Assembly: GCA_963924555.1 (NCBI GenBank)
Contig: OZ004588.1
Location: forward strand, 6,917,205-6,981,204
Source of the DNA: Crambe crambe
Lineage: Eukaryota; Porifera; Demospongiae; Poecilosclerida; Crambeidae
DNA: 64,000 bases
Direction of reading: 5' to 3'
The notes below the pieces were generated by a model. It was not told the origin of the DNA and made no database searches. It saw nothing but the letters and a program-made list of their open reading frames with translations. The position numbers and the translations under genes were made by a program. Every line of letters starts with the position of its first letter. The first letter of the stretch is position 1. This document shows, piece after piece, positions 14,043-61,246 of the stretch.

Positions 14043-15596
<1,554 letters not shown>

Positions 15597-29100: not shown

Positions 29101-30269
29101 GATGCACCTTTGATTACGTTTCTTGGAAATTTGAACTTATTAACTTAATGTACCATTGATAGTTGGTACTTGATAGCATAAAAAGTTTTTTGGTAGACTC
29201 CTCCCAAACTTATTGCATCTTTTCTTGTCAAGGCATGGAATAATAGTGTTCGTCAGTGTGTGAGTGCAGTCATTGTGACCTCTCTTCGAACCACATCCCT
29301 CTCCCTCTCACCACACCCCTTGGAAACATATTCTATCCTCGTCAAGACTCTGATCCAAGCCCAACTTGACCATATAAAGACTGTGAGTACATACCAATCA
29401 ATACATACCATATTAATCTTTTGGATTCTCTAGAATTCCAATATAAAACTGCCATCATCCTCAGATGACCTTCCGACCTTTATAGGCTATGTCTTAAAGC
29501 ATGCATGCAGAGAAACCCAGTCTGTGTGGTAAGTATATAGCTGAGTTAAATAAATGTACAAATTGTTAACTGTCCCCTTTCTTATCTTTCTCTTCAGTTT
29601 GTTTGGTAATCATCTTTGTGATTACCTGAATGAAGTGGAGCCATTGGATGTCTCACAAAAGTTGCTTGTCCATATATCATCTCTTTATCTCATCCACGTC
29701 ATCCATACACTCTCAAGAGGTCACTACTTGCAACTACAGTAGTAGAAAGATCATAGCCCTCCTAATAAAGAGCAAATTTAAAAGCAAAATATGTTACTCC
29801 ATCAGAAAACTAGCTACCTCCCAATCCAGTTTCATAATCAGTTGTAGTCTTGTTCCCAGGCCTTCCTCTCTCACTAGTATATAGTCTCTTTACTTTTTTC
29901 TTCAATGAGAGAGACTACCAGTGTGAGAGGAAGGCCTGGGAATGAGGCTAAGTCAGTTGTGTCTCGAGGTCATGGCTGGTTGAGATGTAAAGTACTGTAT
30001 GAGCCAGGGTGACTGGCTCACACAACATTATGTCAAGATTTTTTTTGTTGTTGTTATTAAATTTTAGGCAAACATGGAGGAGAGGAACTTATGCACTGCA
30101 TGAGATTCTCCATGAAGTTTCTGGACGGACTTGATGAGGAGAATAATCAAAGGTAAAATGATCTGAATTTTTCTCATAATGATATTATGTTTTATTTAGG
30201 TCGAAAGAACTGATTTTAGAGATGAAAACACTTTTAGAAACTGTTCAAGAGAAATTTTATACTAGATAA
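18152..30269 (+). CDS. NCAPG2: Condensin II complex subunit G2 (CAP-G2)
   Basis: NCAPG2 is the HEAT-repeat G subunit of condensin II, which compacts chromosomes before and during mitosis. I join 24 exons in phase to 1242 residues: 18152-18232, 18300-18458, 18523-18640, 18715-18872, 19063-19197, 19282-19376, 19587-19746, 19870-20088, 23865-24044, 24408-24594, 24924-25009, 25086-25257, 25603-25949, 26105-26389, 26661-26771, 26838-26915, 27161-27396, 28273-28484, 28673-28860, 29233-29382, 29434-29528, 29598-29719, 30068-30152, 30200-30269. Diagnostic blocks are EIYAEIYFRAWKLSSGPYLL, EMLLRLYSPFLWRSLKVACP, LHDNSEKVRLAFLELLLLVK, FWNICPIEHLL and RMNPGAARRFYQLAG. Intron 8 (3.8 kb) hosts genes on the other strand. 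Exon starts at 25603 and 28673 were picked to keep phase over slightly earlier AG sites. Exons 17-24 lie in the tandem duplication. Confidence 0.93.
20193..20533 (-). pseudogene. Stop-interrupted paralogue of the cysteine-rich peptide gene
   Basis: Two minus-strand exons mirror the neighbouring intact peptide gene. Exon 1 (20533-20345) has a signal peptide (MNSFTSCVLLVLSVMIFGLS), a Pro/Thr/Ser-rich spacer absent from the neighbour, then CIDVC. Exon 2 (20294-20193) begins RFCQD and ends in CNEC before TAA. The intron phase (0) is the same. Cysteine spacing in exon 2 (11, 10 and 3 residues between successive cysteines) equals that of the intact copy, but a TAA at 20261-20259 interrupts it after 11 codons. 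The first cysteine of the intact pattern is a serine here. It may be a pseudogene or encode a shortened peptide. Confidence 0.55.
21022..21406 (-). CDS. Secreted cysteine-rich peptide nested in an NCAPG2 intron
   Basis: A two-exon gene opposite to NCAPG2: exon 1 21406-21272, exon 2 21129-21022, with GTAATG donor and GTAG acceptor, joined in phase 0 and ended by TAA. The product is 80 residues. It starts with a clear signal peptide (MKTYTVTVICVLLVLSVLLP, cleavage likely after ADA) and leaves a mature peptide of about 55 residues. Eight cysteines fall at positions 28, 33, 37, 48, 60, 71, 75 and 79, with several arginines. An in-frame ATG ten codons upstream (21436) is an alternative start. It resembles disulfide-rich defensive or signalling peptides in general form, but I recognise no family and assign no activity. 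Confidence 0.68.
21725..21900 (-). pseudogene. Possible third, decayed peptide-gene copy
   Basis: On the minus strand a Ser/Thr/Pro-rich stretch (SFIPTPTNSILIPTDG) followed by NCRDHCV and a stop resembles the spacer and first cysteines of the paralogue at 20193-20533. The upstream signal-peptide frame is broken. Similarity is weak, so this is only a suggestion. Confidence 0.25.
22607..22951. mobile_element. MITE with GGCCAAACCAATTAAATTTC-type ends
   Basis: Inverted ends AAACCAATTAAATTTCCTG and CAAGAAATTTAATTGGTTTG bound about 345 bp. The interior matches, in inverted orientation, the element at 49420-49797, including the AGCTAGCTAG-rich core. No ORF is present. Confidence 0.8.
24190..24335. 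mobile_element. Short palindromic element, copy 1
   Basis: The arm TCATTCACTATAACTGC is mirrored by GCAGTTATAATGAATGATC about 130 bp later. The interior CCACTCTCTCTGCTGGTGTT recurs in the copy at 25305-25440. It lies inside NCAPG2 intron 9. Confidence 0.7.
25305..25440. mobile_element. Short palindromic element, copy 2
   Basis: GATCATTCACTATAACTGCC and the complement of its start bound a region almost identical to the element at 24190-24335. It is in NCAPG2 intron 12. Confidence 0.7.
26011..26100. repeat. (CT)n microsatellite at an NCAPG2 acceptor
   Basis: About 45 CT units lead directly into the GTAG acceptor of exon 14. Confidence 0.95.
26425..26550. repeat. Minisatellite of CCTCCCTCGTTCCCAG-like units
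   Basis: Units of about 14-16 bp (CCCTCGTTCCCAG and CCCTCATTCCCAG) repeat eight or nine times within NCAPG2 intron 14. Confidence 0.85.
27947..28203. mobile_element. Foldback MITE in NCAPG2 intron 17
   Basis: Long inverted arms (AGAAGTAGGGATGGCTGTG on the left, its complement on the right) enclose a short loop. The same family occurs at 38207-38463 (duplicated copy) and 54715-55012. Confidence 0.85.
28907..29079. mobile_element. pogo/Tigger-like MITE
   Basis: Ends TACACTGGAACCTCTGAG and the complement of TACAGTGGAATCTCTGC are imperfect inverted repeats with TA at both tips. Ends of this kind are typical of pogo-group elements. It is non-coding and lies in NCAPG2 intron 19; a duplicated copy sits about 10.26 kb downstream. 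Confidence 0.65.
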
Positions 30270-30363
30270 CCACAAAAATTTATTGCACATGCGCATTGAC
30301 GCGCCTCTAGCTAGCCAGCTCATTGCCACACCCACGTATATCGCTTAGGACGACTCTTTGGAT

Positions 30364-31475
30364 ATGGCCGATTATGACGCCCCTCCATCTTCTAAGCGGA
30401 GAAAGACATCGGATAAAAGTAAATATATTGCGTTTGTGCATTTTAAAATTTTACTTCTTTTTTTATTTTTCCAGATGAAGAATCTGTCATTCTACTGAAT
30501 AAAACCACCCGTGAAAAGGTGAACAAATTGTTTGGATCAAACACGAGCCTTGAGATTATGCTAGTTGGTGAACCCGGTATTGGAAAATCGACTTTAATTA
30601 ATGGAATACTCGGAAAGGAAGTAGCTAGAGTAAGTGAGCCTGGTGAAGTGGCTGAGAAAGGAGTTACTCAAGAACTCACTAAATATGTTGCTAAAGTGGG
30701 TAGTGTATCAATAACCCTTTGGGACACACCTGGATTGCTGGACGAAAGTGGTGAGAGTGATCCAGAAAAGGTTTTGGCTGATATAAAGAAGAAATGCACA
30801 TCTAGCAGCATTGATCTTGTATATTTTTGCATTAATATGACTTCGACAAGATGCATTAAAGGTGGTCAGGTGAAGACAATGATCAATAGGTTTACCGAAA
30901 CAGTTGGACGTGATATATGGGGCAAGACGCTCATTATCCTTACAAAAGCGAATTCTGTCATTAATGAATTATTGGATGAGACTGATGATGACTATAAAAA
31001 AACTGAAAAAGGATACCAGCGTAAATTATTTGATTGGAAAAACATTATAAACAAAGTATTAGGCTTGGATACTGATCAAATTCCAGTCATTCCTGCTAGC
31101 ATTGCTAGCAAACACAAAATTCTTAAAACCGACAAAGAATATTGGCTCTCCGTCCTCTGGCAAGAGACTTATAAGCGAATAAAGCGAGAAGGAGCTCGAG
31201 TCTCTTTGGTTAAACTGAATCTTCCCAGATTACAAGAGGAAGTAAAAGAAGATGAATTGAAAGGGAAAAAATTATACGAACAACCTATTCAAGTATCATC
31301 GTTCTGGAGGAATTTAGGGTCCTTTGTGGAAGGTGGTGCAGCAGGTGGCACTTTGGCTGGCATTGGTGCCACAATTTTATCTGTCTGTGGTGTTGCTTCT
31401 GTTGCGAATCCAGTTGGAATTGGTGCCATTGGTGTTGCAGCTGTTGCGGGTGGTTTGTATAATATGTTTCGTTAA
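30364..31475 (+). CDS. Stand-alone AIG1/GIMAP-like GTPase, gene A1
   Basis: Two exons (30364-30418, 30475-31475, phase-1 intron) give 351 residues. The start is MADYDAPPSSKRRKTSDK, with a nuclear-localisation-like basic patch. The G domain has a P-loop GEPGIGKST (about 50-58), a Thr in the GVT switch I block, DTPG (102-105) and a G4 motif TKAN (175-178) instead of N/TKxD. This layout fits the AIG1/septin side of TRAFAC GTPases. After the G domain a conserved PRLQEEVKEDELKGKKLYEQ segment leads to a glycine/alanine-rich hydrophobic tail (about 300-347) that could insert into a membrane. It starts only 95 bp after the NCAPG2 stop. Function is not known; GIMAP-like GTPases act in immune-cell survival and defence in other animals. 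Confidence 0.85.
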
Positions 31476-31643
31476 TTGCTGTAACCATTAGCTGTAGGTA
31501 GGCCCTTACAGTTGCTCCATCAAGATAGTAAACACTTTTATGTCGTTATTTTCATTAAAACACAAGATTGTATATTCTAGTAAATTGTGGGTGGGGCTCG
31601 TTCAAATCACGTTCACGCCCCAGGCTCAAGTATCGATCTGAAA

Positions 31644-34600
31644 ATGGATGGTAAGCCCTAAGGCAATCGCTAGCTACAGCTTTAAACTTCCTTTTCTATA
31701 GTAAAACCTAGCCTTATTGAAGTCGCTACATTCATTCGTGACTTGGATAAAAATGAGGTGACAAGAGTGGGGCTGGAACTTGGATTATCCTTATCCAAGC
31801 TGCGTGGTATGGAAATGATTCCTGAAGACATGATTGCAAAATGGCTGATTGCTGATGATGATGTTCTTAAAATAAGTGGCAGCCCAAGCTGGAACAGTTT
31901 GGTCACAGCACTGGAGAAAATTGGTCACAATGGTATTGCCTACGAAATCAGGAAGAGTAAGCTGGTTTGTAGAGAAATGGGATCCTTTAGTATACTATTC
32001 CAATCATTACAGAAAATCTTTCATTTGCCTGTCCACATTCACCACCGAGTGTTGCTCAAGGTGAGCTTATAAAAACTGATTAGCAAACCACAATAGATAA
32101 TGTCAACTACCATAATGCTGATAGCTGTTTTGGAACTCTGTTGTAGATTATTATACCCAAGCCAATAACCCACTAAACTGCATCCTCAGGCAATTCCTTT
32201 AAGGGAGACTCCCCTACAATTACAAGTGATTTACTATCAGCTATTATATTTACAGATGAATTGTCTACAGTACGAAGGGAGAGACTTGAACTTGAAAAAT
32301 TTCTGTCTAAACTAGTTCGAACCCTTTTGTATGAACTCGAGAAGGGTAATGTGGAAGTTTGGAAGGTAAGACAGCACATCGTTGCCTTGCCGCTATCATT
32401 GAACCAAGAGATACACAACACTATGGAAGAATACGTGGGTAAACTGGATGACCACCACACTTTGACTTCAATCTTTCACTTCCTGAATTCAAATGTATGG
32501 AATTTCATTGATTATTATCTTCTGGAATACCTTATCACTGAATTCGGTAGCGATAACCTCAAAGAGGACATGAAGAAGTATATCAGTGAGCTAGAGAGAT
32601 TTCAGAAACATACTACCGTGTATCATTTTGCACAATGCTGGATACCAAAGAAAAAACCTGAGATCTATGCTAACGTTAGAGAAAAAACAGGCATGGATCC
32701 AAGAAAATGTACCCTGGAAGTATTGAACAAGAAGCGAAAAGAGCTATGCGAGCAATTTCTACCTCCTTTCTCTGAATATGCTATATTTTTATACAATATT
32801 GAGATTGGGTGCTTTCAGATTACCTGGACGATGCCACCACAGCTTGCTGATACACTATGGGAAAAAATTACCAGCAATTGTCAAAAAAGCCAACTGTACT
32901 TCCAGGAGCATTCAATACTCTCTTTTACTATCCACCAGAATAAGCAAGTTTTCATTTATCAAGGTTAGTTATAAATTACACTCGCTAATAATTATTTCTC
33001 TGTGTTCTGACCATTCTACCATTACTGCCGTGTTCTTCATTGTCTTCCAGAACCAACTAAAGCCGATATTAGTCAGAAAATGACCATTTCTCAAGAGGGT
33101 GTCTCTGAGAATGTGAGCATGGAATATTCGTCTGCCATCCCTGAAGACTCACTGAGTTCTGCAGAGGAACATATCTCGCTACAGCTTCATCCCTTCTTCA
33201 CTGGACCATTCCAACTGCCAGATGATTATGAGTCAGCAAGTCCAGCTTATCTGATCAAACCCAGCAGAAGAGTGGAATTTAAGAAGGATGTAAGAGTCGA
33301 AATCCAGCACTATGCTTGCCTGGAGAGTGAGGAGGACTGTGACGACATGGTGTTCCTCTCAGCCAGTGCCACTCCAGAGTTAAGGGAATCTGGTCCAGTG
33401 TATATCTTCCAAAAAGAGGAGGCCAAAGGGGTGTTCAAGCCTGGATACCAAGTGGGAGTGGTGGAGCTGGTCTCCTTGAGAACACCTTGCTTGATTAAGG
33501 CAGGCAAAAGGAAGCAGTCTTCTTTAACAAATTCATCCAAAGGTTAAGATGATTCACTCTGCAATGGGTATGTCCATTCATTTATTGTTAATTTTCCAGG
33601 AAACACATTCTATTACTCAGCAAGATTGTATAGGAGTTTATCCCGAAACTTTGCAATATTTTGCATCTGTTTGTACCATGAAGTATACATGAAGGTGTGC
33701 ACTTTACTACTATCCCCATCAAGTGTATACATCACTGCTTTATTCATACACAGCACTGTGACAGAGTGATAGCACAAAATGAACCTGAGTGGGAAATAAG
33801 TACAGTCACTGCTCGACTAAAATCGGATGAAGTCAGTCTTTGTGTGGCTGATGGAAAAGGATGGAAAATTGTATTCGATAGTGAACCTTTAAAGGTGATG
33901 TCTGATCATACATAAGAGCATATTATCATTATCTACCCCACTATAGATCTTGAAAAGAGATATCCATCTAAATGTTTCCGAGTGTCCTGACTATCCTCCA
34001 AGACTCTCACTTCAGTTTGAACTGGACGCCATGAGTGAATATTCCAATCCAATCATGCTGAGGGTTGATGGACTGGACATGGAGCATTGCTTCTTTATCA
34101 ATGGCAAACATAACTGTAAAATTTGTGGTCTAGCTAGCTAAACCAAGGCATCACTAATAATCTATGTTGTACAGTGGTGGTACCTTCTGAAAGTCTCAAG
34201 TCTAGCAAAGACTCCATTCCTGCATCATCTGGAGAACCCACTAAAGAATTGAAGACTTCATCACAAGGTAGGTAGCTATGGAATTGGATCACTTAGTGTG
34301 TGGTTAATGGTCCATAGCTCAGGTGTGTTTGGTCAGGTTTAATGGTATTCACAGGACCAGTACTTGTGTGGTACAAACCAACTTGTAATAACAGCTGCCC
34401 AGTCAGCGGCTGACCTTTTGTGTCTAAGGATTATAATAATAATAATTATGGAGGCCACTATAATAGGGTCTGGGTGTCCTACATTGATCTGGGTATCTAT
34501 GCATATGCAGCATGTCTATCAGCAAAAGATCACTGGAAAGTTGCTAAGCATCTGAAAAAGCTGGATTCGGAAGCGCTAATGGATTTGGGTATGGCACTGG

Positions 34601-36005
34601 GACTCCTCTATGCCAATTTGAAGCGTATGACACCTTTATGCAATGAGATGATCGCTGCATGGCTCGATCAGCAAGATAATGTCGTTGAGCAGAGTGGTGA
34701 GCCTAGTTGGAAGAGTCTGAAATCAGCACTTGAGGATACAGGACGTATGCATATTGCTGATGAAATCACGTATAATTTATACCAGTCAACTGCCAAACGA
34801 TTGCACAGAATGGTAGGTGTACAACTATTGTTAGCTTATCCACTGCCAGTCATGTTTTGTCCAACTTGCCATTTTTTGATGTCCTGCTATGAAGTGGCAT
34901 TAACAGATTTATCAGAGTGTTAGAGGTAGTGTTTGTATGATAATGTAGGAGAGTTCTGAAGTCGCTGTCCCTTCACCTAAACGAATGAAGAAATCAAATA
35001 AAGGTACCATTTCACGACTATTACAACACACACTGTATCTAATTTCCTCTCCAATTTCTCTCAACAGAAGATTACATCAAACCATCCCAAGAATCATCCA
35101 GTGAAGTCAAATCTCACACCAAATCACATGAAATGCCAACCAGTGAAGGAGCTGCTAGTGATTCCACTGCTGAGAAACCTATAGATAGGAAGCTGTTCGA
35201 ATCCGAGACATCTCTGGATATCATGGTTGTAGGTCAACCTGGCATTGGAAAATCGACTCTAGTAAATGGATTAATTGGTCAGAAAGTGGCGAAAGTGAGC
35301 GCTCTTGGTCGAGTGATGATGGAAACTGTTACTAAGACGATTGAGAAGTACAGCATCAAAGTGGGCACGGCAACGATCACTATCTGGGACACACCTGGAC
35401 TGTTGGATCCCAGTGGAGACCCTGAGAAAGTCTTGGCTGATATACAAGAAAAGTGTACAAAAGTCGACCTCATTTTTCTCTGCATTAACATGTGTGAGAA
35501 GCGTTATCTCCATGGCAATACAGTACAGCAAATTCTCAAGCGATTCATTGAAGCTTTCGGCCACGATGTGTGGGAGAAAATCATAATTGTTTTGACAAAA
35601 GCCAACATGGTTGTCAATGAACTCCGAGATCTTGGCAAAGACATTCAGGAGGGCTACGACCGCTCTCTCTCAAATTGGCACCAGATTTTGTGCAACGAAC
35701 TGGGTCCAGATATGACGGTTCCGATAGTTCCTGTCGGCATACAGACTAGACCTAAGATTATGAGGACAAGTGAACAGTATTGGCTCTCCAATCTGTGGGA
35801 AGAGGCATTCCATAGAATGAAGTATCCAGAAGCACGTGCATCACTCTTAAAAGTGAGCCTTCCCAGACTGAAGCAGAAGATCAAGGAGAGAGATTTAAAG
35901 GGGAAAGAGTTACATGAACAGCCTATTGAAGTCAGCAAATCTCGCATGGAGTATTTCAGACAGATGGATTATGCACTTCACTTTTTCAAAGAATTATTTT
36001 TTTAG
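31644..36005 (+). CDS. Multidomain protein A2: Death - helical - ZU5 - UPA-like - Death - GTPase
   Basis: Eleven exons join in phase: 31644-31650, 31702-31956, 32256-32963, 33051-33542, 33600-33694, 33754-33894, 33947-34115, 34175-34267, 34511-34812, 34949-35003, 35068-36005, giving 1084 residues. Residues 1-87 are a Death domain (VTRVGLELGLSLSKLRGMEM, then SWNSLVTALEKIGHNGIA). Residues 88-323 are an unnamed helical domain with YLLEYLITEFGSDNLKEDMK. Residues 324-487 contain a ZU5-like domain (SPAYLIKPSRRVEFKKDVRV). Residues 488-622 look UPA-like, after their position behind ZU5. Residues 654-754 are a second Death domain. The GTPase follows a basic linker (PSPKRMKKSNK), with GQPGIGKS at 828-835, DTPG at 880-883 and TKAN at 949-952. 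Unlike A1 it lacks the hydrophobic tail and ends HFFKELFF. ZU5-UPA-Death order recalls PIDD, UNC5 and ankyrins; the role is inferred to be signalling. The exact start of exon 9 (34511 or 34523) is uncertain. Confidence 0.8.
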
Positions 36006-37187
36006 GATCTGGCCGAATTCTCCATTGAAAAGTACATCAGATTCTCACTTTATGATAATTATATATAGCATGTCAAGTATGTATGCATTTCCTCCTTATG
36101 TGTATAGTTTTGTGCACATTATACAGAGTGTTGATTACACATAGCTAAAGGTATATTCATGGGTGTGTGGGGCATGGGCGTAGCCAGGGGTGGTTCGGTC
36201 TTCAAAATGAATAAAAATAATTATTTTAAGCGCGAGCGCGCTATGCATGTCATCATCAGAACCTGACTTATCACTTGTTATAAATCATTTTTATGTTACA
36301 CCTGAGTAGCCTCCCTCAGTCACTTGACATTCTTTTTCCCCCGTTTATTTTGCATATGCCCTTTGGGCTTTACATTGCTTGATTGATTGATGTACGCGCG
36401 CGTTCGTGAAAGAGATCGATTGATCGATCGTGAGCTCGAAGCGTGAGAGAAACGAGTGAGGCAAAGCCTCTTATTATTTTCGTCCAAAAAAGGTCAGTTT
36501 TACTTATAACTCAGCCCTACTGAGCAGTTAGTGGCTTAGTGCCTGAGACTATTGCTGTAAAAACAGTACAAGTAGCTAACAGATTGTGAAGAAGTGGTGC
36601 CATCTTCATCATCTACTACTCATCTTCATACATTCCCTGCCTTCGTATGCTACATTGCAGCTGCATAGGTTCCAACTTTCTGAAATGATAATTAGTGACA
36701 TGCTTGGATTAATATACTGCGCGCGTGAAAATTGTTGAAACCACGTCCACTTCTGGTTAACCACACCCTCTTTCTTAGGCAAGATAGTCGATTGTCTGTG
36801 GCTAGCCCAAATTTTTTTTTCCCCGCGTTAATGCGCGGATAATTTCAGAACCCCCTCTCAAAAAACTCTGGCTACGGGCCTGTGGGGGTATACTGGAATG
36901 CACATTATGTAATTAGCTATAATAATGGACAAAAAGTAGCACATGTTTTTTGCTCTATCCTGCACATGCACTGTAGGAAATGTGTACAACATCCAATCTA
37001 TCCTTTATAGGACCCAGTAGTATGATATATATTTAGCAAGCTGCATGGTCATAGCTATCCCCATAAACTTGCATTATCATTGGTGTGGGTATGACTAATC
37101 ATTCATCCGGATGGTGATATATATCACACCAAGAGAATGCCAGAGGTATTATAAGTCCTCAGACACACATACACAATAACCAGTAGC
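36006..37187 (+). other. Spacer after A2 with a transposon insertion
   Basis: Outside the element at 36173-36880 the sequence is AT-rich, matches 46838-47322 of unit 2 with noticeable divergence, and contains no gene I can support. Confidence 0.7.
36173..36880. mobile_element. Non-autonomous TIR element, possibly hAT-like, unit 1 only
   Basis: Ends CATGGGCGTAGCCAGGGG and the complement of GGCCCGTAGCCAGAG are imperfect inverted repeats. The flanks share TGTGGGG, an approximate 7-8 bp target duplication. The corresponding site in unit 2 (about 46985) is empty. A related copy is at 51515-52010. No transposase ORF is present. Confidence 0.8.
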
Positions 37188-40100
37188 CCTGGCCTACTGG
37201 TCAAAAGGACATAAGATTAGATTATTCCACACCAGTGATAGTAACACTATACTCCATGCTCTCATTATTTCAAACATAGGTCCCACTTTCAGTTTGTAAC
37301 CCAGTTTCATACATGCATGAGAAGTACACTTAAAGTCTGAAGTGCACTCCCAATACTTAGTCCACAACTGTCTATGAGCTTTTCTTATAAATGGCTGTTC
37401 TAAATTTCAACTTTATACAGGATCTGCTTAGCTTGCATTTCTCCTCTGCTCAATCCAGTCGACCTGTACCCTTTGAGCTTCTGAAGAAGGCTTTCTCTCT
37501 CTACTTGCGCATGTGTGTCCACAGAAGGGTCAGGGGTATTGGGGGCAGAGCCACGAAGGACGAGGAAGGAGAGGAGGCGTGGCTCATTGAGGAGATGAAG
37601 GATATACAGCAGTGGTGCACAGATGTCCTTCTACCACCACTTACAGAAACCACAAGGTGAAAGGGGTTATCATTTTATGACTTTATGGCTTATCCTCAGC
37701 CTCATAGCTACATACAAAGCTTCAAGTTTTTGGTCACTGGCTGTGACCTTCTGAAAAATATTAGTGACTGTTATGGGAGATGTCTTAAGCAAATTATACA
37801 CACCAGCTTTTAACTCCCTCGAATCCTTCTCCTTTAGGCGTATTATGAGGGTCTTTTCTACAGCGAGAGTCCTTTGTTCCACAGACGGGACTTATCATAC
37901 TCATTGTGGGATCAGTTGGGAGGTCAATGATGTCCTATAGTTATTGTTATAGTTTCAGTATTTTGTGTCAGGTCTGCATGTGTAGTGTGATGTGGGGGAG
38001 ATATAATTTAGTACTATAAGCACTAAGTTAATTTCTATAGCTGAGAGTTATGAGAACTTTTTAGATGTGAAATACAGCCAAAGAATGTCCCTCAGGACTT
38101 ATCTGACACAACCCACACATTCTTTGGATGGTGGGAGCACTTAAGCATTAGCTAGCTATGTCACTTGTGTGGTTGGTTTCCAATCATGGCCATCCAGTGG
38201 AAAAAAATATTTATTCTAAATAAAAAAGAGAAGTAGGGATGGCTGTGTGTGGTTCAAAAAAGTTCAAGAGAATGAACTTCAGTCAAGTAACCCCTTATCC
38301 ATCACCAACTACAAGGTAACTATTCCTACTTCACTCCCATGATGAGATATAAAGTAGGAATAGTTGGCTTGTAGTTGGTGATGGGTAAGGGGTTACTTGA
38401 CTGAAGTTCACTCTCTTGTTGCTGAACTTTTTTGAACCACACACAGCCATCCCTACTTCTTTTTTTTTTTGGCACCCTGTCTAGGGTGGTTACTACTTCA
38501 TTTTAACTTCCCACATCTTCCTATTTTTAGCTCAGCAGCATCTTCTAGGAGACGCAGTTCTCGCAAGCGTAAGGCTAGTCAGTCGTGTCCACCAGCCCCT
38601 CCCTCTCTGGCAAGGACTCAAGCAGAAGAACTTACCAGAGACTTGCTAAGCTTGTTTTCAGAGATGCTTCTGATAGGAATAGCACAGGACTCCTTGCTAC
38701 AAAACCAGATGGCTCAAATTGCAAGCAACTTTGCTGCTACAAGTAAGAGAATAGTAATCACACAAGTGAAAGTTTAAGGATTATAGTGGCGTCCATATAA
38801 AATTATATCAAATGAATTGAAGGTATTGGGACCTCAATTTTCTAGCTTAGAATTCTGCATATAGGCTGTAATAAGGCTAGTTTTGCATGGGACTGTTTGT
38901 TCATATTTAGTTCTTCATCGCCCAACATAGATTCAGGGCAGTTGTTTTTGCCGTCCCTTTGCAAACTACTCTTCCAGCTGTGTGAGGTCTCTTCCCACCA
39001 GGAGGTGGAAGGAATAGCAGTGGGACCGGGGGCCCTTACCCCCACTGCTACCCTCCTTGACTCCCTACTCACTCTCCTCAACAAAATCAGTGTTGAAAAC
39101 CAAGCTGCCTTCACCAAGGTACAATACAATCCAACTACAGGTCTAAAGGATCACAGATATGATATACACTGGAGCCTCTGAGTAAAGGACACTTTGGAAT
39201 CAGCCACTTTATCCTTTGCAGAGAGGTTATCCTTTCTTGGAGGTTAAAAATGTACTTTGGAAAAGGACCCAAAAGAGCATCCTTTGTTGGGAGGTTGTCC
39301 TTTTCTTAGAGAGTCCTATAGCAGAGATTCCACTGTAAGAGAACATCTGTTGTGAAATGATGCACCTTTGATTACGTTTCTTGGAAATTTGAACTTATTA
39401 ACTTAATGTACCATTGATAGTTGGTACTTGATAGCATAAAAAGTTTTTTGGTAGACTCCTCCCAAACTTATTGCATCTTTTCTTGTCAAGGCATGGAATA
39501 ATAGTGTTCGTCAGTGTGTGAGTGCAGTCATTGTGACCTCTCTTCGAACCACATCCCTCTCCCTCTCACCACACCCCTTGGAAACATATTCTATCCTTGT
39601 CAAGACTCTGATCCAAGCCCAACTTGACCATATAAAGACTGTGAGTACATACCAATCAATACATACCATATTAATCTTTTGGATTCTCTAGAATTCCAAT
39701 ATAAAACTGCCATCATCCTCAGATGACCTTCCGACCTTTGTAGGCTATGTCTTAAAGCATGCATGCAGAGAAACCCAGTCTGTGTGGTAAGTATATAGCT
39801 GAGTTAAATAAATGTACAAATTGTTAACTGTCCCCTTTCTTATCTTTCTCTTCAGTTTGTTTGGTAATCATCTTTGTGATTACCTGAATGAAGTGGAGCC
39901 ATTGGATGTCTCACAAAAGTTGCTTGTCCATATATCATCTCTTTATCTCATCCACGTCATCCATACACTCTCAAGAGGTCACTACTTGCAACTACAGTAG
40001 TAGAAAGATCATAGCCCTCCTAATAAAGAGCAAATTTAAAAGCAAAATATGTTACTCCATCAGAAAACTAGCTACCTCCCAACCCAGTTTCATAATCAGT

Positions 40101-40527
40101 TGTAGTCTTGTTCCCAGGCCTTCCTCTCTCACTAGTATATAGTCTCTTTACTTTTTTTCTTCAATGAGAGAGACTACCAGTGTGAGAGGAAGGCCTGGGA
40201 ATGAGGCTAAGTCAGTTGTGTCTCGAGGTCATGGCTGGTTGAGATGTAAAGTACTGTATAAGCCAGGGTGACTGGCTCACACAACATTATGTCAGATTTT
40301 TTTTGTTGTTGTTATTAAATTTTAGGCAAACATGGAGGAGAGGAACTTATGCGCTGCATGAGATTCTCCATGAAGTTTCTGGACGGACTTGATGAGGAGA
40401 ATAATCAAAGGTAAAATGATCTGAATTTTTCTCATAATGATATTATGTTTTATTTAGGTCGAAAGAACTGATTTTAGAGATGAAAACACTGTTAGAAACT
40501 GTTCAAGAGAAATTTTATACTAGATAA
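37188..40527 (+). pseudogene. NCAPG2: Duplicated 3' fragment of NCAPG2 (exons 17-24)
   Basis: The last eight NCAPG2 exons recur with near-perfect identity, offset by about 10260 bp (first at 37421-37656, stop at 40525-40527). Exons 1-16 are missing and the left edge falls in intron 16, so no complete protein can be made. The exon sequences remain open, as expected for a recent duplication. It could still be transcribed or act as an alternative 3' end. Confidence 0.9.
38207..38463. mobile_element. Foldback MITE, copy carried in unit 2
   Basis: Identical in structure to the element at 27947-28203 and duplicated together with the NCAPG2 tail. Confidence 0.85.
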
Positions 40528-40625: not shown

Positions 40626-41740
40626 ATGGCCGATTATGACGCCCCTCCATCTTCTAAGCGGAGAAAGACATCGGATAAAAGTAAATATATTGCGTTTGTG
40701 CATTTTAAAATTTTACTTCTTTTTTTTTTTTTTTTCCAGATGAAGAATCTGTCATTCTACTGAATAAAACCACCCGTGAAAAGGTGAACAAATTGTTTGG
40801 ATCAAACACGAGCCTTGAGATTATGCTAGTTGGTGAACCCGGTATTGGAAAATCGACTTTAATTAATGGAATACTCGGAAAGGAAGTAGCTAGAGTAAGT
40901 GAGCCTGGTGAAGTGGCTGAGAAAGGAGTTACTCAAGAACTCACTAAATATGTTGCTAAAGTGGGTAGTGTATCAATAACCCTTTGGGACACACCTGGAT
41001 TGCTGGACGAAAGTGGTGAGAGTGACCCAGAAAAGGTTTTGGCTGATATAAAGAAGAAATGCACATCTAGCAGCATTGATCTTGTATATTTTTGCATTAA
41101 TATGAATTCGACAAGATGCATTAAAGGTGGTCAGGTGAAGACAATGATCAATAGGTTTACCGAAACAGTTGGACGTGATATATGGGGCAAGACGCTCATT
41201 ATCCTTACAAAAGCGAATTCTGTCATTAATGAATTATTGGATGAGACTGATGATGACTATAAAAAAACTGAAAAAGGATACCAGCGTAAATTATCTGATT
41301 GGAAAAACATTATAAACAAAGTATTAGGCTTGGATACTGATCAAATTCCAGTCATTCCTGCTAGCATTGCTAGCAAACACAAAATTCTTAAAACCGACAA
41401 AGAATATTGGCTCTCCGTCCTCTGGCAAGAGACTTATAAGCGAATAAAGCGAGAAGGAGCTCGAGTCTCTTTGGTTAAACTGAATCTTCCCAGATTACAA
41501 GAGGAAGTAAAAGAAGATGAATTGAAAGGGAAAAAATTATACGAACAACCTATTCAAGTATCATCGTTCTGGAGGAATTTAGGGTCCTTTGTGGAAGGTG
41601 GTGCAGCAGGTGGCACTTTGGCTGGTATTGGTGCCACAATTTTATCTGTCTGTGGTGTTGCTTCTGCTGCGAATCCAGTTGGAATTGGTGCCATTGGTGT
41701 TGCAGCTGTTCTGGGTGGTTTGTATAATATGTTTCGTTAA
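40626..41740 (+). CDS. Stand-alone AIG1/GIMAP-like GTPase, gene B1
   Basis: Duplicate of A1: exons 40626-40680 and 40740-41740, 351 residues. It differs from A1 by only a few substitutions (for example NMNSTR for NMTSTR, LSDWK for LFDWK, AANPVG for VANPVG, VLGGLYN for VAGGLYN). P-loop, DTPG and TKAN motifs and the hydrophobic Gly/Ala-rich tail are intact, so both copies look functional. The upstream sequence is duplicated too, so any promoter within the 95-bp gap after the NCAPG2 tail is shared. Confidence 0.85.
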
Positions 41741-41918: not shown

Positions 41919-44900
41919 ATGGATGGTAAGCCCTAAGGCAATCGCTAGCTACAGCTTTAAACTTCCTTTTCTATAGTAAAACCTAGCCTTATTGAAGTCG
42001 CTACATTCATTCGTGACTTGGATAAAAATGAGGTGACAAGAGTGGGGCTGGAACTTGGATTATCCTTATCCAAGCTGCGTGGTATGGAAATGATTCCTGA
42101 AGACATGATTGCAAAATGGCTGATTGCTGATGATGATGTTCTTAAAATAAGTGGCAGCCCAAGCTGGAACAGTTTGGTCACAGCACTGGAGAAAATTGGT
42201 CACAATGGTATTGCCTATGAAATCAGGAAGAGTAAGCTGGTTTGTAGAGAAATGGGATCCTTTAGTATACTATTCCAATCATTACAGAAAATCTTTCATT
42301 TGCCTGTCCACATTCACCACCGAGTGTTGCTCAAGGTGAGCTTATAAAAACTGATTAGCAAACCACAATAGATAATGTCAACTACCATAATGCTGATAGC
42401 TGTTTTGGAACTCTGTTGTAGATTATTATACCCAAGCCAATAACCCACTAAACTGCATCCTCAGGCAATTCCTTTAAGGGAGACTCCCCTACAATTACAA
42501 GTGATTTACTATCAGCTATTATATTTACAGATGAATTGTCTACAGTACGAAGGGAGAGACTTGAACTTGAAAAATTTCTGTCTAAACTAGTTCGAACCCT
42601 TTTGTATGAACTCGAGAAGGGTAATGTGGAAGTTTGGAAGGTAAGACAGCACATCGTTGCCTTGCCGCTATCATTGAACCAAGAGATACACAACACTATG
42701 GAAGAATACGTGGGTAAACTGGATGACCACCACACTTTGACTTCAATCTTTCACTTCCTGAATTCAAATGTATGGAATTTCATTGATTATTATCTTCTGG
42801 AATACCTTATCACTGAATTCGGTAGCGATAACCTCAAAGAGGACATGAAGAAGTATATCAGTGAGCTAGAGAGATTTCAGCAACATACTACCGTGTATCA
42901 TTTTGCACAATGCTGGATACCAAAGAAAAAACCTGAGATCTATGCTAACGTTAGAGAAAAAACAGGCATGGATCCAAGAAAATGTACCCTGGAAGTATTG
43001 AACAAGAAGCGAAAAGAGCTATGCGAGCAATTTCTACCTCCTTTCTCTGAATATGCTATATTTTTATACAATATTGAGATTGGGTGCTTTCAGATTACCT
43101 GGACGATGCCACCACAGCTTGCTGATACACTATGGGAAAAAATTACCAGCAATTGTCAAAAAAGCCAACTGTACTTCCAGGAGCATTCAATACTCTCTTT
43201 TACTATCCACCAGAATAAGCAAGTTTTCATTTATCAAGGTTAGTTATAAATTACACTCGCTAATAATTATTTCTCTGTGTCCTGACCATTCTACCATTAC
43301 TGCTTGTCTTCCAGAACCAACTAAAGCCGATATTAGTCAGAAAATGACCATTTCTCAAGCGGGTGTCTCTGAGAATGTGAGCATGGAATATTCGTCTGCC
43401 ATCCCTGAAGACCCACTGAGTTCTGCAGAGGAACATATCTCGCTACAGCTTCATCCCTTCTTCACTGGACCATTCCAACTGCCAGATGATTATGAGTCAG
43501 CAAGTCCAGCTTATCTGATCAAACCCAGCAGAAGAGTGGAATTTAAGAAGGATGTAAGATTCGAAATCCAGCACTATGCTTGCCTGGAGAGTGAGGAGGA
43601 CTGCGACGACATGGTGTTCCTCTCAGCCAGTGCCACTCCAGAGTTAAGGGAATCTGGTCCAGTGTATATCTTCCAAAAAGAGGAGGCCAAAGGGGTGTTC
43701 AAGCCTGGATACCAAGTGGGAGTGGTGGAGCTGGTCTCCTTGAGAACACCTTGCTTGATTAAGGCAGGCAAAAGGAAGCAGTCTTCTTTAACAAATTCAT
43801 CCAAAGGTTAAGATGATTCACTCTGCAATGGGTATGTCCATTCATTTATTGTTAATTTTCCAGGAAACACATTCTATTACTCAGCAAGATTGTATAGGAG
43901 TTTATCCCAAAACTTTGCAACATTTTGCATCTGTTTGTACCATGAAGCATACATGAAGGTGTGCACTTTACTACTATCCCCATCAAGTGTATACATCACT
44001 GCTTTATTCATACACAGCACTGTGACAGAGTGATAGCACAAAATGAACCTGAGTGGGAAATAAGTACAGTCACTGCTCGACTAAAATCGGATGAAGTCAG
44101 TCTTTGTGTGGCTGATGGAAAAGGATGGAACATTATGTTCGATAGAGAACCTTTAGAGGTGATGTCTGATCATACATAAGAGCACCACATAAGCATATTA
44201 TCATTATCTACCTATAGATCTTGAAAAGAAATATCCATCTGCCTGATTTAAATGTTTTCAAGTGTCCTGACTATCCTCCAAGACTCTCACTTCAGTTCGA
44301 ACTGGATACCATAAGTGAATATTCCAACCCAATCATGCTGAGGGTTGATGGACTGGACATGGAACATTGCTTCTTTATCAATGGCAAACATAACTGTAAA
44401 ATTTGTGGTCTAGCTAGCTAAACCAAGGCATCATTAATAATCTATGTTGTACAGTGGTGGTACCTTCTAAACGTCTCGAGTCTAGCAAAGACTCCATTCC
44501 TGCATCATCTGGAGAACCCACTAAAGAATTGAAGACTTCATCACAAGGTAGGTAGCTATGAAATTGGATATAATTGGATCACTTAGTGTGTGGTTAATGG
44601 CAGTGGCGTATCTAGCGAGGTGCTCAGGGTGCTCGAGCACCCCCCTCAGCTGCTAGCTAGCTTTTTCAGTAAGCTCGCTTCTATAGTTATCTATCCAATT
44701 ATTTAAAGCTGATCATCTAGCAAGCAGTTTAATAATTATTACACTTACAGAAAGAGCAGCATTGGGGCATTGGGTCAGAGTTCAATAATCACATCGGCGA
44801 GGCGCATGCGCCCGGCACGTTTTTACCCTAAATAATGCAACATCTCGATCTAATTATTTCTGTGCTTTTTTATTCAGTCTGCACCAGTGTCTTCTCACTT

Positions 44901-46837
44901 CTGATCCTGTACGCTGGTAAAGTAGGGTAGCTAATACTTAGGCCATCATCTGGGTATAATAAAGAGGGTGTGGTTAATCAAAAGTGGGCGTGGTTCGCAA
45001 AAATTTCGTGCGCGCTTACGCGCGCATTATCTAGCTAGCACCCGCCTAGCTCAAATTCTAGATACGCCACTGAATGGTCCATAGCTCAGGTGTGTTTGGT
45101 CAGGTTTAATGGTATTCACAGGACCAGTACTTGTGTGGTACAAACCAACTTGTAATAACAGCTGCCCAGTCAGCGGCTGACCTTTTGTGTCTAAGGATTA
45201 TAATAATAATAATTATGGAGGCCACTATAATAGGGTCTGGGTGTCCTACATTGATCTGGGTATCTATGCATATGCAGCATGTCTATCAGCAAAAGATCAC
45301 TGGAAAGTTGCTAAGCATCTGAAAAAGCTGGATTCGGAAGCGCTAATGGATTTGGGTATGGCACTGGGACTCCTCTATGACAATTTGAAGCACATGACAC
45401 CTCTACGTGATGAAATGATTGCTGCATGGCTTGATCAGCAAGATAATGTCGTTGAGCAGAGTGGTGAGCCTAGTTGGAAGAGTCTGAAATTAGCACTTGA
45501 GGATACAGGACATATGGATATTGCTAACGCAATCATGCAAGGTACAGGAATTCGTGGACTAGGTAATATAATTTATTATACCCAAAAATTATCATAGGGC
45601 AGCCCAGAAGAGATCAGTCAACTGCCAAACGATTGCACAGAATGGTAGGTGTACAACTATTGTTAGCTTATCCACTGCCAGTCACGTTTTGTCCAACTTG
45701 CCATTTTTTGATGTCCTGCTATGAAGTGGCATTAACAGATTCATCAGAGTGTTAGAGGTAGTGTTTGTATGATAATGTAGGATAGTTCTGAAGTCACTGT
45801 CCCTTCACCTAAACGAATGAAGAAATCAAATAAAGGTACCATTTCACGACTATTACAACACACACTGTATCTAATTTCCTCTCCAATTTCTCTCAACAGA
45901 AGATTACATCAAACCATCCCAAGAATCGTCCGGTGAAGTCAAATCTCACACCAAATCACATGAAATGCCAACCAGTGAAGGAGCTGCTAGTGATTCCACT
46001 GCTGAGAAACCTATAGATAGGAAGCTGTTCGAATCCGAGACATCTCTGGATATCATGGTTGTAGGTCAACCTGGCATTGGAAAATCGACTCTAGTAAACG
46101 GATTAATTGGTCAGAAAGTGGCGAAAGTGAGCGCTCTTGGTCGAGTGATGATGGAAACTGTTACTAAGACGATTGAGAAGTACAGCATCAAAGTGGGCAC
46201 AGCAACGATCACTATCTGGGACACACCTGGACTGTTGGATCCCAGTGGAGACCCTGAGAAAGTCTTGGCTGATATACAAGAAAAGTGCACAAAAGTCGAC
46301 CTCATTTTTCTCTGCATTAACATGTGTGAGAAGCGATACCTCCATGGCAATACAGTACAGCAAATGCTCAAGCAATTCATCGAAGCTTTCGGCCACGATG
46401 TGTGGGAGAAAATCATAATTGTTTTGACGAAAGCCAACATGGTTGTCAATGAACTCCGAGATCTCGGCAAAGACATTCAGGAGGGCTACGACCGCTCTCT
46501 CTCAAATTGGCACCAGATTTTGTGCAACGAACTGGGTCCAGATATAACAGTTCCGATAGTTCCTGTCGGCATACAGACCAGGCCTAAGATTATGAGGACC
46601 AGTGAACAGTATTGGCTCTCCACTCTGTGGGAAGAGACATTTCATAGAATGAAATATCCGGAAGCACGTGCATCACTCTTAAAAGTGAGCCTTCCCAGAC
46701 TGAAGCAGAAGATCAAGGAGAGAGATTTAAAGGGGAAAGAGTTACATGAACAGCCTATTGAAGTCAGCAAATCTCGCATGGAGTATTTCAGACAGATGGA
46801 TTATGCACTTCACTTTTTCAAAGAATTATTTTTTTAG
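41919..46837 (+). CDS. Multidomain protein B2: Death - helical - ZU5 - UPA-like - Death - GTPase
   Basis: Duplicate of A2. Exons: 41919-41925, 41977-42231, 42531-43238, 43315-43806, 43864-43958, 44018-44158, 44218-44395, 44455-44547, 45278-45541, 45613-45644, 45781-45835, 45900-46837, about 1085 residues. Most domains differ from A2 by single residues. The UPA-like exon 7 is three codons longer (LPDLNVFKCPD against LNVSECPD). The end of the second Death-domain exon is rearranged: A2 reads straight through, while B2 needs an extra intron (donor at 45542 or 45563, acceptor before 45613) to reach STAKRLHRM in frame. A 472-bp MITE lies in the intron between 44547 and 45278. The GTPase keeps GQPGIGKS, DTPG and TKAN and also ends HFFKELFF. 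Confidence 0.75.
44601..45072. mobile_element. 472-bp MITE inserted in B2 intron 8 only
   Basis: Perfect ends CAGTGGCGTATCTAG and CTAGATACGCCACTG are inverted repeats, flanked by AATGG on both sides. The matching A2 intron has a single uninterrupted AATGG (about 34305), so the empty site proves an insertion. The CAGTGGCG tip resembles hAT-type ends, but a 5-bp target duplication would be atypical. Confidence 0.9.
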
Positions 46838-60100: not shown

Positions 60101-61246
60101 GCATAATAATAGCTATTATTATAAGGTTGGATTAATCTTGATTCTCAAAAGTTAAGCTTGCAGGCAATAATTATATATAGCTGCAGTCATATTAGCCCTA
60201 GCCCTAGCCCTAGCCCTAGCCCCCTAGCCATTAGTAAAGATTTTCTCTCATTGATAACTATCATCATAATAGGAAAAGTTTATACTGATATCCTGAATGA
60301 AACCACTCGTAAAGAAGTTATTAAGCTATTCGAATCTGATTTAACTCTTGATATTGTGGTGATTGGTGAAGCTGGTATAGGAAAATCGACTTTGGTGAAT
60401 GGTATAATCGGAAAAGAAGCAGCTCCAACTGGAGACTTTTCTCGATACGGCATCACTGCGAAAACAACGAGTTACATAGGTAATGTAGGCAGTGTGAAAA
60501 TTTGTCTTTGGGATACACCAGGATTATTTGACCCGAGCCACAATACTGTGAGAGTTATGGCTGATATCAAACATTTAATTAACACTGCCGATCTTGTATA
60601 TTTGTGCATCGATATGATTCCAGCAAGATTTCTCGAGGATGCCAAGGCTATAAAAATTATTAAAAAATTACCAACTATGAGCTCAGATATATGGGATAAA
60701 ACTGTGATTATTTTGACACAAGCAAATGTGGTTGTTTCAAAGTTTTCACACAAGTATGATAAAGAGAAAGTTGAAGATGAATACAAAGACAAATTGTCTA
60801 AATGGAAAGAGTATATACGTGAACTTCTTCCACCCACTAATCAGATTCCAATCATCCCTGCTGGTTATCGTTTGCCAAGAATTATTGAAAGTGATGAAGA
60901 ACTTTGGATCTCTTTGCTTTGGAGAGAAACGTGTAAAGTGATAAAAAAACCCGAAGCTCAAGCGGCTTTTATTAAAGCCAGCATACCAAGGTTCCAGAAT
61001 GAAGTAAAAGAAGATCGAATCAAGGAGAAGAAATTATATGAACAGCCTATACAAGAGCCAGCTATCTCAGATCGCATATCATCCTTCATACAAGGTAGTG
61101 CAGCTGCTGCTGCTGCAACTGGCATTGGCGAAGCAATTTTAGCCGCCTGTGGTGTCACTACTGCATTGAATCCGGTTGGAATTGGGATCCTTGCTACGGC
61201 AGCTTTTTCTGGTGGTTTGTATAATGTATTGAGGAAAAAGGACTAG
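49009..61246 (+). CDS. Gene E: Death - helical - zinc-finger/basic linkers - GTPase
   Basis: Eight exons join in consistent phase: 49009-49396, 52422-53114, 58233-58285, 58497-58560, 59165-59284, 59342-59376, 59540-59603, 60273-61246, giving 796 residues. Residues 1-129 include a Death domain (CNIIAMKLDRWELLASSLGL ... LAEGLEKIKRLDLVGELC). Residues 130-360 are the unnamed helical domain (LLQEIVNRYGSENLKKQMKS). The middle has two copies of a linker pair (PKRKEQSETCE + DMIDAPQPKKTKK; PKRKERSETYE + DMIDAPPPKKPKK) around a C2HC zinc-finger-like exon (CSICKR ... LRTHGPRNKRC). The GTPase has GEAGIGKS (504-511), DTPG (553-556) and TQAN (621-624), then a Gly/Ala-rich hydrophobic tail. The join across 53114-58233 is inferred from matching phase and the architecture of gene D. 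Alternatively there are two genes, 49009-53128 and one ending at 61246. An ATG at 60158 would only extend the last exon backwards through its intron. Confidence 0.6.
49420..49797. mobile_element. MITE related to 22607-22951
   Basis: Ends AGGCCAAACCAATTAAATTT and its complement form about 27-bp inverted repeats. The interior matches the NCAPG2-intron copy in the opposite orientation. Confidence 0.88.
49797..51492. mobile_element. 1.7-kb inverted-repeat element with internal foldback
   Basis: Ends ATAGAGCACTCCGTGGATAT and its complement are inverted repeats of about 28 bp. From about 49856 to 50345 the left half contains a second, imperfect palindrome with arms near 200 bp (CTCAAAAGCCTTCTGTTTG and GCATGCGC segments mirrored). 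No transposase is recognisable. An exon-like stretch at about 50449-50529 could encode KFGLLELLMSLDSGHFSVKL before a GTGACT donor, perhaps captured host sequence. Confidence 0.75.
51515..52010. mobile_element. TIR element related to 36173-36880
   Basis: Starts CATGGGCGTAGCCAGGGGTG and ends CTCTGGCTACGGGCC, like the unit-1 insertion but about 200 bp shorter. It shares GCGCGATCGCGCG-rich and TGAGCTCGAAGCG segments with that copy. Confidence 0.8.
54149..54188. repeat. (TCA)n microsatellite
   Basis: Twelve to thirteen TCA units. Confidence 0.95.
54715..55012. mobile_element. Foldback MITE, most complete copy
   Basis: AAATATTTATTCTAAATAAA at the left is mirrored by its complement at the right, with arms of about 130 bp around a short loop. 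The same family as 27947-28203 and 38207-38463, but with both ends preserved. Confidence 0.9.
55171..55518. repeat. Tandem duplication of about 172 bp
   Basis: Two units starting GTATAAAC and including AGAAGAGAGGAGA and ACAAGTTCTAAAATTGAC lie head to tail, with a few substitutions and indels. Confidence 0.85.
55851..56259. repeat. Diverged tandem duplication of about 245 bp
   Basis: Segments with TTAATAATCACTGCATACT and TTGAACTTCAAGCACTAAG-like sequence occur twice in the same order, separated by about 245 bp. Confidence 0.75.
56831..58032. mobile_element. 1.2-kb element with TAGGCCTGAGGCTATTATGC ends
   Basis: TAGGCCTGAGGCTATTATGC at the left is exactly mirrored at the right. Subterminal GGCATAATGCTGGCATAATG-type repeats follow the left end, and GAGCATAATAG-type repeats precede the right end. 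No transposase ORF is visible, so it appears non-autonomous. Confidence 0.8.
58166..60110 (+). repeat. Tandem duplication of the gene E linker region
   Basis: 58166-59080 and 59082-60110 share the order CCTCTAAGATCAGGAGAAGT, the PKRKE exon, a GTT-rich tract, the DMIDAP exon, GACCATGAAAATTTCATGGG and TGCCTGGGGCTGAGGCTACT. The zinc-finger exon occurs only in the second unit. Confidence 0.88.
58331..58424. repeat. (GTT)n / (GCT)n microsatellite
   Basis: Imperfect trinucleotide run in a gene E intron. A shorter GTT run occupies the equivalent place near 59446-59473 in the second unit. Confidence 0.9.
60193..60229. repeat. (CCCTAG)n run
   Basis: Five hexamer units in the last gene E intron. Confidence 0.9.

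Follow-up and report, generated by a model that had tools for sequence, protein, structure and literature searches.

The stretch of Crambe crambe DNA analysed here, a window of 64,000 nucleotides, carries on its forward strand a gene, B1, whose predicted product joins Death and ZU5 domains to a GTPase of the AIG1 type. Its features are these:

31644..36005, + strand: fused gene B1 (copy 1), an open model of 11 exons and 1106 aa
31644-31650, 31702-31956, 32190-32963 and 33051-33542, + strand: B1 exons 1-4
33600-33694, 33754-33894, 33947-34115 and 34175-34267, + strand: B1 exons 5-8
34511-34812, 34949-35003 and 35068-36005, + strand: B1 exons 9-11
31702..31956, + strand: Death domain 1 (Death1), sister to the g7 Death domain (gene at 61826)
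32255..32659, + strand: conserved helical domain, borders approximate
32660..32962, + strand: TRADD-N-like domain, borders approximate, with a G-C turn ahead of an ITW strand
33155..33541, + strand: ZU5 domain, from PF00791 on paralogues
33482..33490, + strand: T-P-C replacing the relatives' H-F-C at the end of ZU5
33600..34115, + strand: UPA-position segment, exons 5-7, placed as in PIDD, after ZU5 and before Death
34511..34767, + strand: Death domain 2 (Death2), whose usual donor is absent in B1
34949..35003, + strand: exon 10, with an internal in-frame ATG at 34985
35068..36005, + strand: AIG1/Toc34-type GTPase, the last exon, with no hydrophobic tail
35232-35255, 35388-35399 and 35595-35606, + strand: GTPase motifs G1, G3 and G4 (TKAN)

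An earlier reading of 31644-36005 as eleven exons in a single frame is borne out by an open frame of 1106 codons, by GT-AG introns throughout and by a second copy of the locus; introns at domain borders are in phase 1. The chain runs Death, helical, TRADD-N-like, ZU5, UPA-position segment, Death and AIG1/Toc34-type GTPase, and the gene model supports a predicted protein in which Death, ZU5 and Death are joined to an AIG1-type GTPase. Among the domains named in the first-pass annotation, Death, ZU5, Death and GTPase stand through paralogues and Pfam and UPA stands by position only, and the TRADD-N-like domain had been missed. The HMM check proposed there succeeded in part: on the whole B1 chain the GTPase is the sole Pfam match, with no direct match to Death, ZU5, UPA or TRADD-N and with neither a NACHT domain nor LRRs, so Death and ZU5 were traced via paralogues. 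A homologue search with the whole chain gave no match at E 0.01, and an Rfam search of 28000-64000 gave nothing at the gathering score.

The ZU5 assignment comes from paralogues 46-59% identical, on which PF00791 exceeds its cut-off (33.8 bits at C3:7723945, for example) with none of the 14 controls matched. In alignment A3, ZU5 is matched by 8 of 17 rows (best E 0.0071), and the ZU5 domains of B1 and of its second copy, B2, have no direct Pfam match themselves. PF17217 (UPA) matched nowhere in the genome or in the controls, the UPA exons being split, and we designate exons 5-7 as UPA by position only. Direct Pfam signal is weak for the Death1 group, where 3 of 11 rows match with E 0.078 at best, and absent for Death2 of B2. 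The latter shares 33% identity with a Death domain that Pfam does recognise, behind a ZU5 paralogue (C19:4990279), and L081 bridges the assignment of Death2 as a Death domain. Among solved structures PIDD ranks first for the Death2 group at E 0.07; an initial PIDD match at E 2e-4 leaned on one clear Death row and was set aside, 0.07 being the value without that row. An hhalign comparison of Death alignments A6 and A7 yielded no match.

The helical domain (alignment A5) has no convincing Pfam family. Exon 3 of B1 has at least 138 matches genome-wide, and for three of them a GTPase match follows on that strand within the next 5 kb, two of the three being B1 and B2; the exon-3 and GTPase match lists are both lower bounds, g7 being too divergent for the former. 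The TRADD-N-like domain is recognised by a G-S or G-C turn before the third strand, seen by eye in 15 of 17 rows of A5, and a Gly-Ser/Cys turn at this place has been described for TRADD-N (PMC8195603). The PF13820 (TRADD-N) profile found nothing in the genome and was blank in the controls too, and the matches of the A5 profile include no TRADD-N family and no solved TRADD-N structure.

On the B1 chain the Pfam AIG1 profile scores 54.4 bits against a cut-off of 27, and it is not specific, since it exceeds that cut-off in 8 of 14 control genomes too, mostly prokaryotes. The nearest solved relatives are of Toc34 type (E about 1e-9), followed by Der (2e-7), septins (8e-6) and GIMAP7 (6e-5). The G, G, K and S of the P-loop (G1) and the D, P and G of DxxG (G3) are invariant in the 46 rows of A4. 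GIMAP/AIG1, Toc34 and septin GTPases share G1, G3 and an AIG1 score above cut-off with B1, and an FG...W motif before G4 is common to the B1 GTPase and Toc34. GIMAPs have a conserved box and a C-terminal coiled coil. From this group of GTPases the B1 GTPase differs in its T-x-A-N G4 motif, and in sequence it is nearer to Toc34-type proteins than to GIMAPs; with the AIG1 profile unspecific as well, the original label "AIG1/GIMAP-like" keeps its first half and is too narrow in its second.

The window holds further genes of these kinds:

30364..31475 (30364-30418 and 30475-31475), + strand: stand-alone GTPase A1, with a Gly/Ala-rich hydrophobic tail
40626..41740, + strand: stand-alone GTPase A2, the second copy
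41919..46837, + strand: fused gene B2 (copy 2), its Death2 exon ending at 45541 and followed by a phase-1 donor
60273..61246, + strand: g6 GTPase exon, with a hydrophobic tail, near-identical to P0003
61826..64000, + strand: second fused gene g7, running off the window, with Death, linker, divergent helical domain, linker and GTPase

Each fused gene is preceded at close range by a stand-alone GTPase gene whose product has a hydrophobic tail. From the A1 stop to the B1 ATG is 168 bp, and the g6 GTPase exon ends 579 bp upstream of g7; a database protein of 351 aa, P0001, is identical to A1 and joins both of its exons. At least 81 pieces of the genome match the neighbouring stand-alone GTPase. 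The two copies of the locus are 98.6% identical over 26928-34289 versus 37188-44569 and 96.3% over 34783-36175 versus 45615-46995, with the same exon ends in B1 and B2 for exons 1-8, 10 and 11 and an in-frame 9-nt difference in exon 7.

The g7 model encodes 718 aa, has all introns in phase 1 and joins its Death domain in phase to a GTPase that scores 57.7 bits for AIG1. The g7 Death is sister to Death1 (support 99/97), which suggests that a Death-GTPase fusion is old. For the GTPases, tree tests leave a grouping of g7, B1 and B2 with g8 standing (p-AU 0.286) and reject a clade of g7, B1 and B2 excluding g8 (p 0.0003). The closest GTPase relative, g8, is a stand-alone gene. A cluster at C5 was considered as an additional fusion and ruled out, its GTPase having its own ATG and its Death/TRADD-N gene being merely adjacent.

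The join between Death2 and the GTPase is not alike in the two copies. In B1, 65 bp are missing from the end of Death2, among them a donor that B2 retains, and confidence in its exon 9/10/11 junction is lower than in the other parts of the model. In B2, a phase-1 donor follows Death2 and the GTPase exon is joined in frame with exon 10 skipped, giving a chain of 1078 aa; the end of exon 9 and exon 10 are thus peculiar to B1. Exon 10 shares 30 of 55 identities with A1 exon 1 (30364-30418) at equal length and phase, is the best ungapped 55-nt match to that exon in the window, and is one of three among 127,890 sequence windows to reach this score, the others being A1 exon 1 and its copy. By this resemblance, exon 10 is probably a captured first exon, the relic of a stand-alone GTPase gene.

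Alternatively, the locus may hold two adjacent genes, a Death-TRADD-N-ZU5-UPA-Death gene ending after Death2 and a GTPase gene starting at exon 10 or 11, which we regard as a serious but lesser possibility. In its favour, exon 10 is like the first exon of a stand-alone GTPase gene, in-frame ATGs lie at 34985 in exon 10 and at 35133 in exon 11, an AATAAA lies at 34997 within exon 10, the B2 frame continued beyond Death2 closes with a stop 18 codons on, C5 shows such genes side by side but separate, the nearest GTPase relative g8 stands alone, and no database protein spans Death2 and the GTPase, though spliced P0001 is present there. On the other hand, a phase-1 donor follows the Death exon behind UPA in B2 and in 5 of 6 paralogues (donors by eye), unlike a last exon, and exon 11 has the matching phase; the same donor follows one Death exon upstream of ZU5 (by eye). 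In g7, moreover, the single in-frame ATG that the last two exons offer before the P-loop sits within strand 1 of the G domain, so that a protein begun there would not be a complete GTPase. A single transcript carrying both parts is the reading that we carry forward.

B1 and B2 could also be parental haplotypes set in tandem by the assembly, which would leave one fused gene and is compatible with the other readings; we give this a minority chance as well. It would fit the high identity across about 9 kb and another long contig with the cluster, which has one B-type GTPase, P0045, among the matches listed, but the A-type GTPase of that contig (P0002) is 80% identical, no simple allele, and the copies differ by the 65-bp deletion and other indels. 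It is improbable that gene turnover has produced the fused copies as decaying by-products that do little as a joined protein, for although B1 is without the donor that B2 retains, a broken GTPase gene lies nearby (48381-47420) and pN/pS between the copies is 0.37 in Death2 and about 0.9 in exons 5-8, so that the UPA part may be decaying, neither model contains a stop codon, pN/pS in the GTPase is 0.09 (5.0 nonsynonymous and 15.0 synonymous differences), and the Death-GTPase combination is common to the divergent g7.

Self-cleavage occurs at HF/S in PIDD and SF/S in CARD8, and the Phe is required (PMC3210808). The relatives of B1 have HFC at the PIDD position, in 28 of 28 paralogue loci fetched outside the window, and by its resemblance to HF/S these ZU5-UPA proteins probably cut themselves after HF, at the cysteine. 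B1 and B2 carry TPC rather than HFC and so are expected to stay uncut; from this motif we infer that the fused copies lost self-cleavage. HFC relatives and TPC fused copies would together form a natural experiment on ZU5 self-cleavage.

PIDD1 and NLRP1/CARD8 (FIIND) likewise have ZU5, then a UPA-position segment, then a death fold. B1 differs in having no LRR or NACHT found, an extra N-terminal Death and TRADD-N-like domain, the TPC motif and a C-terminal GTPase. In Amphimedon, 357 Death - TRADD-N proteins have been reported (PMC8195603), similar to B1 in their N-terminal Death, TRADD-N-type domain and variable C-terminus; unlike in B1, there is no GTPase and no ZU5-UPA among the Amphimedon C-termini that this paper names in its section 10. 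AIG1/GIMAP genes were reported as undetected in Amphimedon (PMC3723955, PMC7053062, PMC11229196). For the DEDD2 clade there is a description of fusions with AIG GTPase and with UPA-ZU5, and for the mollusc Crassostrea virginica one of fusions of death folds with AIG GTPases (PMC8195603). Biomphalaria glabrata, also a mollusc, has AIG1 proteins with N-terminal death domains, the order seen in B1, and the portion of that paper covered here leaves ZU5, which B1 has, unmentioned (PMC7053062). A literature search for AIG1 combined with ZU5 found nothing. The initial claim that no described protein combines these parts is consequently tenable solely for the full chain, Death-fold and AIG1 fusions having been published already (PMC7053062, PMC8195603), and the full combination looks new within a known kind of immune-protein reshuffling.

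On balance, and by a narrow preference, we favour a cytosolic scaffold for immune or cell-death signalling that carries a GTP switch of its own. Partners would be drawn in through homotypic contacts of the Death and TRADD-N-like domains, and the ZU5-UPA pair, its cleavage site lost, would act as a permanent link. With GTP bound, the tail-less GTPase would form dimers, either with a GTPase of its kind or with the tailed one that the upstream gene encodes, a pairing that could gather Death domains at the membrane. If the protein is one chain, a nucleotide switch from the AIG1/Toc34/septin class would form part of a death scaffold resembling PIDD, and death folds would have another way to controlled assembly in addition to the NACHT and NB-ARC switches; the parallel with NLR sensor logic drawn in the first-pass annotation is reasonable as an analogy.

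A bolder and rather unlikely extension is a two-gene GTPase immune module, duplicated as a unit, in which a tail-bearing, membrane-seeking GTPase would work with a partner welded to a scaffold with a locked ZU5, a sponge-evolved, GTP-switched counterpart of paired NLRs. The scaffold of such a module would be Death/TRADD-N, with ZU5-UPA-Death added in one lineage.

The eleven exons that the first-pass annotation had drawn for B1, a gene fusing a Death domain (Death1), a helical domain, a TRADD-N-like domain, ZU5, a segment in the UPA position, a second Death domain (Death2) and a GTPase, are all present, with GT-AG introns and a single frame of 1106 codons ending in a stop at 36005. All introns but three are in phase 1; the phase-0 ones are two within the UPA part (5/6 and 6/7) and the one that follows Death2 (9/10). 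That annotation described one copy of the locus. The region starting at 26928 is repeated 10.3 kb further on, with identities of 98.6% and 96.3%. Unless the doubling represents two haplotypes that the assembly has set in tandem, the stand-alone GTPase (A1, A2) and the fused gene (B1, B2) are thus each present twice. The gaps within the pairs are short (A1-B1 168 bp, A2-B2 178 bp), and a third pair, g6-g7, is separated by 579 bp.

Genes and exons of the A/B locus and its neighbourhood
30364-31475: A1, stand-alone GTPase upstream of B1
31644-36005, plus strand: B1, fused gene
48381-47420, minus strand: frame-broken GTPase gene in pieces 47866-48381, 47672-47869 and 47420-47668
48943-49416: Death exon
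52415-53128: exon like exon 3 of B1
60273-61246: g6, GTPase exon with tail
from 61826 onward: g7, second kind of fused gene
beyond the window end: g8, stand-alone GTPase

An open piece related to the frame-broken gene is found on another long contig (P0006). Across the sponge's own genome (143 Mb, 119 contigs), the A1 GTPase has at least 81 matches, exon 3 (helical plus TRADD-N-like domain) at least 138 and the ZU5-UPA part at least 177, all of them counted as pieces, not genes.

A Pfam scan of the whole B1 chain matched the GTPase alone (AIG1 54.4 bits, MMR_HSR1 50.8 bits), and the annotated ZU5 and Death domains are borne out through paralogues. Pfam does not match the ZU5 of B1 and B2 directly, but in paralogues with 46-59% identity PF00791 exceeds its cut-off (for example 33.8 bits at C3:7723945 and 32.5 bits at C12:4933606); this model is without signal in the 14 control genomes. 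Among Death rows lacking a clear Death member, 3 of 11 have weak Pfam matches (best E 0.078), and comparison with solved structures places PIDD first (E 0.07). The bridge is a Pfam-positive Death domain that follows a ZU5 paralogue (C19:4990279) at a distance of 2.3 kb and shares 33% identity with Death2 of B2 (BLASTP 2e-6, search set of 7). The UPA-like region is assigned by position; the PF17217 search gave no match. In 15 of 17 rows of the exon 3 family, a G-S or G-C turn precedes a strand whose last residue is an invariant W. This agrees with the description of TRADD-N in PMC8195603, but searches for TRADD-N with PF13820 and against solved structures gave no match. A Pfam Death lies no more than 1.5 kb upstream of 22 of 39 exon-3-like matches (39 of 138 checked) and no more than 4.5 kb downstream of 6 of 68 ZU5-UPA-like matches (68 of 177 checked), counts that rest on 150 scored of 965 Death candidates. 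The same scoring, 150 of 965, gives at least 150 Pfam Death matches in this genome.

The weak spot of the fusion model is the junction between Death2 (exon 9) and the GTPase (exon 11). Compared with B2, B1 is missing 65 bp from the end of its Death2 exon, a gap that the first-pass model spans by shifting the donor and using exon 10. It is possible that the Death2-containing gene and the GTPase are separate genes. Spliced A1 is present in the database as an identical protein (P0001, 351 aa), yet none of the 22 proteins found at E 0.001 covers more than 67% of the query or spans Death2 and the GTPase, and the full B1 chain has no match among database proteins of 608-1935 aa. Separate genes are also favored by in-frame ATGs (34985 and 35133), by an AATAAA (34997) and by the C5 locus, where a GTPase that has its own ATG is only a neighbor of a Death/TRADD-N gene. 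Exon 10 matches A1 exon 1 at 30 of 55 positions with equal length and phase, a score reached by 3 of 127,890 windows (A1 exon 1, A2 exon 1 and exon 10 itself); it has no ATG at the A1 start position, its internal ATG being that at 34985. On this likeness, we read it as probably the first exon of a once-separate GTPase gene.

The donors point the other way. The Death2 exon of B2 ends at 45541 in a phase-1 donor, CAAG/GTACAG. Seven paralogous Death exons were inspected by eye (L033, L034, L039, L042, L058, L059 and L060, that of L040 being left out): of six behind a UPA, all but L033 show a donor in phase 1 at the corresponding position, and in L058 the Death exon with such a donor lies upstream of its ZU5. 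Given these donors in B2 and the paralogues, the Death2 exon is probably followed by another. Splicing it to exon 11 in B2 yields an open chain of 1078 aa; splicing it to exon 10 meets an immediate stop.

The reality of the B fusion is supported by g7, a second, divergent fused gene of six exons (718 aa, all introns phase 1) that encodes a Death domain, a linker, a helical domain that is divergent (weak HMM match, E 0.0053), a linker and a GTPase. In its last two exons ahead of the P-loop, the sole ATG sits within the first strand of the G domain. The g7 Death is sister to Death1 of B (support 99/97), and in the GTPase tree A groups with g6 (88/82) and B with stand-alone g8 (100/99; the g8 row is P0004). 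When g8 is included, a clade with g7, B1 and B2 is not rejected (p 0.286); when g8 is left out, the clade is rejected (p 0.0003). The simplest history would be that one old pair, a tail-bearing GTPase followed by a Death-GTPase fusion, duplicated to give A-B and g6-g7, and that the fused line released g8.

The GTPase had been called AIG1/GIMAP-like; the GIMAP part of that label fares less well. The nearest solved relatives are Toc34 and T7I23.11 (which we take to be Toc33 of Arabidopsis), then Der and septins, and then GIMAP7 and GIMAP2. Since the AIG1 model gives signal in 12 of 14 control genomes (above cut-off in 8), "AIG1/Toc34-type" is the safer label. Across 46 aligned rows, the G1 and G3 letters, the N of the G4 T-x-A-N and W238 are invariant, and T176, A178 and W168 nearly so. 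By eye, A1, g6 and several relatives bear a Gly/Ala-rich hydrophobic C-terminal tail that the fused B copies lack. The database protein P0063 (463 aa), probably from a transcriptome judging by its name, has a CARD-like N-terminus (E 4.5e-4, under the cut-off) followed by a GTPase of this class and a hydrophobic tail rich in glycine.

The earlier statement that no described protein combines these domains can stand for the exact arrangement, which we did not find in open-licence papers, but not for Death-fold/AIG1 fusions as a kind, which are already known. AIG1 proteins with N-terminal death domains are reported in Biomphalaria (PMC7053062). For C. virginica, PMC8195603 reports AIG GTPases that follow DED-TRADD-N, and for the DEDD2 clade it reports fusions with AIG and with UPA-ZU5. 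Open-licence searches for AIG1, death domain and sponge returned the Biomphalaria report alone; those for AIG1 together with ZU5 returned nothing, and the passages retrieved for GIMAP and ZU5 describe no B-type chain.

The ZU5 domains differ at a putative cleavage site. PMC3210808 reports self-cleavage at HF/S after each ZU5 of PIDD, and at SF/S in CARD8 and NLRP1; the nucleophile may be Ser, Thr or Cys, and changing the CARD8 Phe to His severely impairs cutting. At the ZU5 end, HFC, likely a cysteine version of the PIDD site, is found in 28 of 28 loci that lie outside the window (L033-L060, the best-scoring 28 of at least 177 matches), whereas B1 and B2 have TPC. If HFC is a working site, as we infer, then to judge from these motifs the relatives probably self-cut with cysteine, and the copies fused to the GTPase probably stay uncut. 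Between B1 and B2, pN/pS is 0.09 for the GTPase and 0.37 for Death2; pooled exons 5-8 give approximately 0.9 (15.5 nonsynonymous and 4.5 synonymous changes) and may be under loose constraint, and exons 1-4 hold too few changes for a judgement on selection.

Other features of the window
7090-6677, minus strand: chromodomain protein (63 bits)
17474-16518, minus strand: NAB-type transcription cofactor (NCD2 76 bits, NCD1 42 bits)
27958-28211, 38218-38470 and 54709-55016: three occurrences of a fold-back (inverted-repeat) element, each roughly 250-310 bp long, with 87-90% similarity between arms and between copies

A long TC-type simple repeat at 15148-15436 shows up as an open reading frame made of S and L.
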